This document shows positions 24,648 to 54,010 of a stretch of DNA of 64,000 nt, in pieces; position 1 is the first letter of the stretch, and the number at the start of each line of letters is the position of its first letter. This DNA comes from Nitratidesulfovibrio termitidis HI1 (lineage in GTDB: Bacteria > Desulfobacterota > Desulfovibrionia > Desulfovibrionales > Desulfovibrionaceae), in NCBI RefSeq assembly GCF_000504305.1, contig NZ_KI632512.1, forward strand, positions 466,388 through 530,387. Direction: 5' to 3'. A model generated the notes under the pieces. It had not been told where the DNA came from. It saw only the letters and a list, made by a program, of their open reading frames with translations, and ran no database searches. A program made the translations under genes and the position numbers.

Positions 24648-24724
24648 GGCAAGGTAGCTCAGTTGGTTAGAGCATGCGGTTCATACCCGCAGTGTCGGGG
24701 GTTCAAATCCCTCCCTTGCTACCA
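24648..24724 (+). tRNA. tRNA-Met (CAT anticodon), elongator type
   Basis: Complete cloverleaf with encoded CCA. Acceptor GGCAAGG/CCTTGCT with a G-T first pair, D stem GCTC/GAGC, anticodon stem TGCGG/CCGCA with loop TTCATAC (CAT at 24682-24684), T loop TTCAAAT. The anticodon stem lacks the three consecutive G-C pairs of the initiator, so it is an elongator; a lysidine-modified Ile tRNA with the same anticodon cannot be excluded from sequence alone. Confidence 0.93.
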
Positions 24725-33135: not shown

Positions 33136-33488
33136 GGGGGCGCCCTGGTTTCGACGGGGATGTAGAAGCCGGAACTGCAGGCCGAGGCGCCGCTGGCCTC
33201 GTAAAAAGCGGCACCAAAAGTAATTGCCAACAATTACGAATACGCACTGGCTGCCTAATTAGTGGCCACGCCAAACCGATCGACGCCTGATACGTCGGCG
33301 AGGTGTAACTTCATCAGGCTGGCATCCAAGGGCGCTTGCCGCTGCGGGTGTAAGAACTATAGGTGAGCTGGTCTAGGGCCGCCCGGTCGGGGGCCAAGCC
33401 CGTGACGACAATTGTTCCCGACATAAGCCTGTAGACGTTTCGCGTGGAATGTTCTCGGACGCGGGTTCGATTCCCGCCGCCTCCACCA
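33136..33488 (+). ncRNA. ssrA: tmRNA (transfer-messenger RNA)
   Basis: One-piece tmRNA. The 5' part GGGGGCGCCCTGGTTTCGAC is followed by GGGGATG, and the 3' part ends with GGGTTCGATTCCCGCCGCC and TCCACCA; the 5' GGGGGCG pairs with CGCCTCC to make the tRNA-like acceptor. The resume codon GCC at 33226 opens a frame encoding ANNYEYALAA followed by TAA (33226-33258). The tag's ALAA end is the usual protease-recognition end. It rescues stalled ribosomes with SmpB (not in this window). The 3' end is used as an insertion site by the mini-island that follows. Confidence 0.97.
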
Positions 33489-44622: not shown

Positions 44623-44786
44623 GTTTCCCTCGTGGGTGCGGTTTTGCCGCACCATGCGCGACGCGCCGGAAAAAGGGAATCCCCCATTCCGGCGCGCGGT
44701 TGTCAGGCATTGTGCGAGGCGAATCACCTCGCGAATGCGGATTTTCGTTCGTTGGCAAGGAAAACAAGCCTGCCATACGGGAGTAT

Positions 44787-44838
44787 GCGGCAGCCGTCAT
44801 GCGAGTCTTCGAGCATTACGGATGGCGACCGCATCGCG
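44787..44838 (+). repeat. Dispersed hairpin-bearing repeat, copy 1
   Basis: 52 bases, beginning GCGGCAGCCGT and ending TTACGGATGGCGACCGCATC then GCG. The same ends occur inverted at 53936-53988. Its core folds as CCGT-C-ATGC...GCAT-T-ACGG. The inner pairs differ from the other copy but still pair, which points to a conserved structure. Confidence 0.7.
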
Positions 44839-44865
44839 CTCTTATCGTATTCGACCGAGCCTTAG

Positions 44866-44898
44866 CCGTTAGGCAAGCGCGTAGCGCGAGTCTTACAG
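44866..44898. repeat. Degenerate hairpin of the same type
   Basis: CCGTTAGGC ... GTCTTACAG with an internal GCGCGTAGCGCG segment; one mismatch in the outer stem and one wobble in the inner. It lies 27 bases after copy 1. Confidence 0.4.
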
Positions 44899-44930
44899 AC
44901 AAAGACAGCAAGGCAATGGCTGGCGCAGTT

Positions 44931-45007
44931 TGACCGCCCTGCGCTCGATGCCCGTAAGGCTCGCAAGCTCGCCTGACGGGCACGCTCCGCGCCCTTCGGG
45001 GCGGTCA
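44931..45007. repeat. Nested inverted repeat next to the lutC 3' end
   Basis: Outer arms TGACCGCCC (44931-44939) and GGGCGGTCA (44999-45007) enclose TGCCCGTAAGGC ... GCCTGACGGGCA (44949-44960 / 44971-44982). The inner hairpin has the same CCGT-N-4bp ... 4bp-N-ACGG design as copy 1. Lying just after lutC on the minus strand, it may serve as its terminator. Confidence 0.7.
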
Positions 45008-45034
45008 GCCAACGAGCGAAAAGACCATTCGCGC

Positions 45035-45691
45035 CTATTCCAGCACCAGCACAATCAGTTCCTTGGGCCCATGCACCCCGAAGGCCAGGGTCATCTCGAT
45101 GTCCGCCGTCTTGGACGGGCCGGAGATAAGCAGCGCGTTGGTGGGCATGCTCTCGGCCCAGCGCATCTCGCGCATGGCCTCGGCAAGGGTGCTGTAGATG
45201 GTGTCGGCCTTCAGCAGCGCCACGTGCACCGTGGGCACCAGCGAGAGCAGGCGCGGTTCCTGCGGGGTGGGCCAGACGATGAGCGTGCCGTTTTCGGCAA
45301 TGCCGCCCAGGGTGGAGGTGATGCCCACGTCGATGCCGAACAGTTCGTCGCGGAAGGCCTCCACGTTTTCGCCGTAGGGCACCAGCTTGGGCAGTCCCTT
45401 GCCCTTGATCTTGGAACGCAGGGTTCCGCCAAACCACGCATCGTGGCCGTAGGTCAGGGTCTTGGCCTCGCGGGCCTTCAGCAGTTCCGCCAGCTTGGCG
45501 GGCCATTCCGCCTCGGGCAGCACGTGGACTTCCGAGCGTACGGTTTCCATGCGCTTTTTCAGCAGTTCGATGCGCTGGGCCTTGTCCAGCATGGGGGCCT
45601 GCCAGGTGCCGCCCTGCGGCACGTAGGGCGAAACAGTGGTGCGCGCCGCGTGCAGGCGCGCAAAGATGCGGTCGCGGGCGGTGCTACTCAT
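45035..45691 (-). CDS. lutC: L-lactate oxidation subunit LutC (LUD domain)
   Basis: 218 residues. A LUD-domain protein with GIDVGITSTLGGIAENGTLIVW, LLSLVPTVHVALL and the C-terminal LLISGPSKTADIEMTLAFGVHGPKEL pattern shared by LutC/LldG. It is the third subunit of the three-part L-lactate dehydrogenase that replaces flavin LldD in many anaerobes. Its start overlaps the end of lutB by eight bases, implying coupled translation. With lutB and lutA upstream it completes the operon; the operon's promoter must lie beyond lutA. Confidence 0.9.
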   Translation of the reverse strand: MSSTARDRIFARLHAARTTVSPYVPQGGTWQAPMLDKAQRIELLKKRMETVRSEVHVLPEAEWPAKLAELLKAREAKTLTYGHDAWFGGTLRSKIKGKGLPKLVPYGENVEAFRDELFGIDVGITSTLGGIAENGTLIVWPTPQEPRLLSLVPTVHVALLKADTIYSTLAEAMREMRWAESMPTNALLISGPSKTADIEMTLAFGVHGPKELIVLVLE

Positions 45692-53912: not shown

Positions 53913-54010
53913 CGGGGAGGGGAAGGAAACTTTTTCGCGTTGCGGTCGCCATCCGTAAGGTTTGCTTCGCTCACCTAACGGCTGCCGCAAAAGTTTCCTT
54001 CCCCTCCCCG
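53913..54010. repeat. Long hairpin with dispersed repeat core (copy 2), probable fbp terminator
   Basis: Perfect 22-bp arms (53913-53934, beginning CGGGGAGGGGAAGGAAAC, and 53989-54010) enclose a 54-base core. The core (53936-53988) is an inverted copy of the element at 44787-44838, and its inner hairpin is CCGT-A-AGGT...ACCT-A-ACGG. On the minus strand it follows the fbp stop by 31 bases. Confidence 0.8.

Follow-up and report, generated by a model that had tools for sequence, protein, structure and literature searches.

Among described repeats, the GTAG and CGTC REPs and the BIMEs are closest to those analysed here, being likewise small imperfect palindromes with kept mismatches that lie at gene ends and occur within palindromes (PMC3733652, PMC8266576). 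CGTC REPs have a CGTC tag, a stem of 8-9 bp and a loop of 4-5 (Table 1 of PMC3733652) and are without a dedicated transposase, and REPs inserted inside longer palindromes are described in A. variabilis, T. roseum and H. neapolitanus (PMC3733652). In the case of the E. coli REP, TnpA-REP recognises one strand of single-stranded DNA (ssDNA) as well as mismatches (PMC8266576). The BOX elements of Streptococcus pneumoniae are also dispersed and modular: their internal module may be missing, single or multiple with the outer structure undisturbed, and they insert into each other. They have terminal inverted repeats, accompanied by target duplications, and boxB in tandem (PMC3049150). YPAL (RU-2) of Yersinia, also a palindromic repeat, is mobile and has targets that span or border on dyad symmetry; both filled and empty sites occur, and its target duplications measure 3-26 bp. 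The available part of PMC2229807 mentions no oriented location at stop codons. Stem-loops are, moreover, concentrated at gene 3' ends in many bacteria (PMC1590033).

The repeats of Nitratidesulfovibrio termitidis HI1 are REP/MITE-like, and the two-layer mobile DNA system that they appear to form looks undescribed. No description of them was found in the literature, mostly open-access, and the word Desulfovibrio is absent from PMC3733652 and PMC1590033. Unlike GTAG and CGTC REPs, they have no GTAG or CGTC tag and no RAYT, involve a large family-wide backbone with several acceptor points, and include tips inverted at one site. Unlike those of BOX, their modules are hairpins at distinct points that are also found on unrelated stems and, unlike with YPAL, no target duplication was seen at the nested insertion or at the empty and filled pairs of sites compared (below). 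The ends of IS200/IS605 and integron attC sites act as folded ssDNA of one strand, and differ from the present repeats in that no linked enzyme was found here.

In the window, the 64,000-nucleotide stretch of DNA analysed, a class A backbone carrying three tip modules lies beside lutC (Table), its right end abutting the lutC stop codon (CTA at 45035-45037, lutC being on the - strand). The original prediction had described here a 52-base element with the same ends as an inverted one near tsaD. Both copies are correct, with GCGGCAGCCGT at 44787-44797 and ACGGATGGCGACCGCA at 44818-44833 on the + strand and the same ends at 53978-53988 and 53941-53956 on the - strand. The predicted lengths of 52 and 53 bases properly include the trailing TCGCG and AACGCG, which belong to the module, and the inner stems are ATGC/GCAT and AGGT/ACCT as claimed. 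The third hairpin is the same tip on the opposite strand. The three predicted hairpins are genuine; a fourth, decayed module and the nature of the cluster beside lutC as a single composite, with three tips on a family-wide backbone, had been missed.

Table. Features of the composite beside lutC and of the tipped stem between fbp and tsaD
Feature	Position	Strand	Basis
Composite: class A backbone with three tip modules	44730..45034	+	folded as one structure; homologues found
Backbone outer stem P1, left arm (CGCGAATG...CGTTCGTTGGC)	44730..44756	+	pairs with 45008-45034 (sequence, fold)
Conserved AAGGAA loop and inner stem P2, left arm, GGGAGTAT	44757..44786	+	conserved in alignments A2 and A3
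Tip module 1, the element of the original prediction	44787..44838	+	exact-ends module type, 38 copies in own genome
Conserved backbone block CTCTTATCGTATTCGACCGA	44839..44858	+	alignments A2 and A3
Tip module 2 (GCCTTAG...GACAGCAAGGC), decayed, ACAGACAAAG in place of ACGGATAAGG	44859..44914	+	type CTTAG/ATAAG
Right arm of the backbone's inner stem P2, with the TTTGAC loop	44915..44934	+	arm-swap test, alignment
Tip module 3, holding the third predicted hairpin (44952-44979)	44935..45007	-	type CGTG(C/G)-tip-(G/A)CATC
Backbone outer stem P1, right arm, up to the lutC stop codon	45008..45034	+	sequence and fold
Terminator-like fbp-tsaD stem, left arm (CGGGGAGGGGAAGGAAACTTTTT)	53913..53935		stem kept in relatives
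Tip module on the stem apex, second copy of the original prediction	53936..53988	-	same strand in G004 and G006
Right arm of fbp-tsaD stem (AAAAGTTTCCTTCCCCTCCCCG)	53989..54010		sequence, relatives

With the shared ends fixed and the middle left free, 38 copies of the exact-ends module (16 forward, 22 reverse) were found in the 4,257,954-base genome, and none with the reversed pattern. A looser, tip-only pattern gave 172 matches as compared with 35 for its control. The hairpins therefore constitute a dispersed family, as had been proposed on their likeness to REPs, and a larger one than the original prediction had seen. The module is ~50-60 bases long, with ends reading GC..AG / AT..GACCGCARMGC, and the type CTTAG/ATAAG accounts for 32 of the 287 modules with all four inner pairs. 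Unrelated stems carry the tip, namely class A composites, class B stems and others such as that at L033. Among 99 genomes, the tip pattern has 86-172 matches in each of the eight of the genus, where controls give 13-37. In the other 91 it never exceeds 27 matches, which is near the controls; some of these genomes reach about twice their control at low counts, and the sites listed there resemble chance. The tip is confined to one genus. The carriers named in a scan of genome contigs (113 stretches) were N. oxamicus, N. liaohensis, Desulfovibrio sp. A2 and two MAGs.

The best-supported fold of the tip consists of CCGU/ACGG, a U.U mismatch, four variable pairs, tandem G.A/A.G, and then at least two pairs and a loop; exterior to it are a G.A mismatch and a helix of three or four pairs that varies with module type. 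RNAfold favours a competing outer pairing, GCCGU/AUGGC. In 223 canonical modules drawn from the 287, the outer triplet is GGC/GGC, with one G.G mismatch, in 145, CTT/AAG in 32 and CTC/GAG in 19, with small numbers of CCT/AGG, CCC/GGG, TTC/GAA, TTT/AAA, GTC/GAC and GAC/GTC; in a few the triplet is incompletely paired (e.g. CTC/GCG, three times). Among the 32 distinct exact-ends cores, in which the search pattern fixes the ends and only the inner stem is free to vary, 96.7% of cells are paired as compared with 91.1 +- 0.6 in shuffles, and 28 cells show double changes as compared with 8.7 +- 2.0 (0 of 500 shuffles as high). Further pair types were not above shuffles in these cores (11 vs 9.2 +- 1.2; 63 of 500 as high). 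In a set of 247 modules chosen regardless of their inner pairs, the paired changes likewise hold. The original prediction had taken the paired substitutions as evidence of a maintained structure. A maintained structure is indeed supported; in the long perfect stems, paired changes can also arise through mutation that perfects palindromes.

The class A element, a composite of ~180-300 nt, comprises an outer stem, an inner stem and up to three tips. A search of the genome in which 40 of 161 candidates were scored found at least 51 pieces, corresponding to ~40 copies, and eight backbone sites in an even 400-kb sample give an estimate of ~85 per genome. With at most 39 candidates scored per genome, the backbone model R1 is present in at least 31 of 99 genomes and at least 14 of 44 genera of the family, and beyond the genus in at least 27 of 95 genomes and at least 13 of 43 genera. 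Within the window, R1 has no match at E 1e-4 because the three tips interrupt that copy.

When 14 natural tip-less copies were aligned, 98.5% of cells paired, 19 pairs had double changes (12.5 +- 1.4 in shuffles) and covariation was 0.524 (0.226 +- 0.016); further pair types were not above shuffles in this alignment. For 49 matches at 44 loci in 13 other genera, double changes occur in 33 of 34 pairs, 96.8% of cells pair as compared with 77.6 +- 0.5, and covariation, in an alignment fitted to the model, is 0.564 as compared with 0.180 +- 0.009. When arms were exchanged between copies, the P1 arms of 48 other copies without tip 3 scored -47.0 with their own partners and -28.3 (sd 1.1) when permuted, and the P2 arms (n=83) -18.5 and -13.8 (sd 0.29), with 0 of 5000 permutations reaching the own value in each case. 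The own partner was the single best arm in only 28 of 48 (P1) and 21 of 83 (P2), as expected because the copies are related. The outer-stem arms differ between loci yet pair over long stretches, giving the element terminal inverted repeats like those of a MITE; analysis of the stem ends relative to the stop codon indicated that chance pairing over-extends the outer stem.

The backbone constitutes a second structure, for which the Rfam searches made gave no match: none at E up to 1 (6 and 8 loci), and none over the window element at the gathering score. The only gathering-score matches in the window were a tmRNA and a tRNA (33136-33488 and 24648-24721). A resemblance of the backbone loop to the hammerhead motif CUGANGA was dropped, since the loop joins two helices, some copies read UUGACG and Rfam gave no match. 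Two or three tandem backbone copies occur in other genera, at L354 (1350-1756), L349 (1354-1609) and L402 (1001-1304).

Class B stems are G-rich and end in TTTT/AAAA, with the tip on the apex. Tip-less stems of this type are found at three places in the genome (1277786, 2563578 and 3505956). These three are near-perfect palindromes, CGGGGAGGG..CCTTTT-2nt-AAAAGG..CCCTCCCCG. In the copies listed, T runs stand before the apex and not after the stem; the three bare palindromes would therefore not be usual intrinsic terminators.

Orthologous places were compared in seven relatives from the genus (G001-G007) for the lutC side, the fbp-tsaD interval and seven further sites (S1-S7). At the lutC side, the ~280-nt composite is absent in all seven, and a left-arm-like stretch is kept in five, so deletion is possible there as well as insertion. 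Between fbp and tsaD, the stem is kept, different in sequence yet paired, in relatives with and without the tip. The tip is on the - strand in the own genome, G004 and G006 and on the + strand in G003 and G007, with a bare apex loop in G002 and G005 and a contig break in G001. Site S1 has a tip in the own genome, G001 (identical) and G007 and a bare 2-nt loop in G003, G005 and G006, G002 and G004 being unresolved or without it. At S2, a tip is present in the own genome, bare stems of other sequence in G001 and G005, and neither was found in the other five. At S3, tip 1 in the own genome is replaced by tip 3 in G003, the two occurring independently of one another; in G006 a module is nested in a module without target duplication, and remnants or other hairpins are seen in the remaining genomes. 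Site S4 differs in every genome. The composite at S5 is in the own genome alone and absent in all seven relatives. The S7 element is in the own genome and G002, in part in G001, and absent in four others. At S6, one stem sequence is shared by the own genome and G002, a quite different paired stem is present in G001, G005 and G006, and none in G003, G004 and G007. These states show that modules come and go, and that one inverts, while the carrying stem stays.

Mapping of the 38 cores relative to genes called with a purpose-written codon-usage gene caller placed none inside a gene, as for the high-copy extragenic imperfect palindromes known as REPs. Their contexts were (-,-) in 18, (+,-) in 12, (+,+) in 7 and unknown/- in 1, and none lay between divergent genes, which make up 35 of 267 neighbouring pairs in a background sample. 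The right-hand gene reads towards the element in all 30 listed composites; its stop codon, in most cases a few bases at most from the element (but not at L054 and L057), is TAG in 23. Beside 36 of 44 backbones in other genera, and 21 of 23 of those in the own genome, a right-hand ORF of at least 100 codons runs on the opposite strand and stops 6-38 nt (mostly 19-20) from the match; equivalent left-hand ORFs numbered 10 and 8, respectively. Two exceptions in orientation are weak reversed matches to the same palindrome. TAG is enriched beside the element, with 41 of 51 stops against 138 of 277 in the background sample (p 5e-5); the corresponding counts in genome G041 are 10 of 14 and 6 of 20. 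Relative to GC-skew arcs, 30 of the 35 listed tip-less backbones share one orientation (p 2e-5). The same lean, without significance, is seen in 26 of 40 composites (p 0.08) and 25 of 38 cores (p 0.07), the polarity of this bias resting on the GC skew of 20 sampled windows with an assumed origin position. The GC skew of the own genome flips sign at about 0.55 and 2.65 Mb. Both points are far from the start of the contig, the apparent location of a dnaA-like gene (judged by eye from the translation), and the origin may therefore lie elsewhere.

The strand that folds can be recognised because a G-T pair becomes an A-C mismatch when the complementary strand is read. In the inner pairs of the 247 tip modules, 65 G-T and 4 A-C were counted, most of the G-T coming from two of the four positions. 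The backbone gave 30 vs 0 in alignment A2, 92 vs 10 in A3 and 44 vs 2 in A4, or 9 vs 0, 42 vs 10 and 6 vs 2 without the mostly-G-T columns; A3 and A4 are alignments fitted to the model, and the model favours G-T; from them three rows (two reversed, one with a large insert) were dropped. All such counts follow sequences rather than events and are inflated by shared descent. A crude count for class B stems (10 loci, ungapped) was 20 vs 22. The fold of one strand is therefore selected in the tip and the backbone, and not in class B stems. As judged by this pattern, the folding strand of the backbone is antisense to the adjacent gene, with tips lying either way. The pattern fits recognition of ssDNA better than a role in mRNA; the folding strand may alternatively be read as an autonomous RNA.

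Taken as a whole, we think it somewhat probable that the hairpins are non-autonomous mobile DNA in two layers, both of which probably move, or moved, as folded ssDNA through a strand-specific enzyme, with gains presumably outnumbering losses. The first layer would be the backbone, old and present family-wide: a long hairpin whose internal loops are conserved and which lies beside stop codons in one orientation. The second would be a genus-specific module that enters hairpin apices, and the backbone at fixed points, in either orientation, and that can disappear or invert in place. A candidate strand-specific enzyme would recognise the GA strand with its fixed mismatches, as with REP and IS200/IS605 hairpins, and any effects on neighbouring transcripts would be a by-product.

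A rather unlikely alternative, although the strongest, is that these are RNA elements, 3'-end structures that terminate transcription or protect or process mRNA, kept for their function and copied by recombination. The placement of the backbone directly after stop codons in a fixed orientation, the avoidance of divergent genes by all 38 cores, the strong covariation over 13 genera and the terminator-like stems would all be explained in this way. However, the G-T/A-C asymmetry places the folding strand antisense to the adjacent gene, most tipped backbones (22 of 30) have both neighbours on the other strand, no 3' U-tract follows the composite of the window in the sense direction, and the elements are absent at orthologous gene ends. 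Tips on either strand of genes, flipped at one orthologous site, are also at odds with it, and the small-RNA reading of the original prediction is not supported, given the same orientation and antisense evidence.

An improbable explanation is that template switching during replication perfects inverted repeats, so that paired changes need no selection, and that gene conversion supplies the copies. Such a process would account for outer-stem arms that vary by locus yet pair and for a precise inversion between arms, and one backbone at S4 in G007 does look like a deletion between direct repeats. However, perfecting would erase the very mismatches that are kept in the 247 modules (U.U in 235, GA/GA in 227), and does not predict the excess of G-T over A-C. 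It is the kept mismatches and this asymmetry, not the paired changes, that argue for a recognised fold, and a mutational origin is already disfavoured for the tip and the inner backbone.

Ordinary GTAG REPs moved by a RAYT (Y1) transposase are highly improbable and, barring a very divergent Y1 enzyme, effectively refuted for the own genome: small imperfect palindromes with kept mismatches at gene ends, and two orientations inside one composite as in BIMEs, do recall them, but a search for Y1_Tnp (PF01797), the control of which was positive in 5 of 14 known genomes, found none in six of the eight genus genomes, the own among them, no GTAG tetranucleotide stands beside the hairpin among the flanks listed, and no CGTC tag is present at the module ends. 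Fragments of a Y1 transposase, one with an internal stop, occur in G001 and G004 (L333 and L334), with no tips adjoining.

A wider reading, tentative though quite possible, is a two-tier mobile ssDNA system of the Desulfovibrionaceae. In it, a conserved folded-DNA element of ~110 nt would insert beside TAG stops, oriented to both gene and replication fork, and would be parasitised by genus-specific modules that target hairpin apices and invert there. The enzyme moving them would belong to a class that has so far not been connected with repeats of this kind.

Repeats of REP type that lack a transposase pose an unsolved problem. In close relatives within this genus, one and the same site can be seen filled, empty, inverted or nested, and two layers of different age are present; the rule for targets, the strand that folds and the enzyme still missing are therefore directly testable in non-pathogenic sulfate reducers. 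The backbone, large, strongly covarying and without an Rfam match in the searches made, merits a family of its own.
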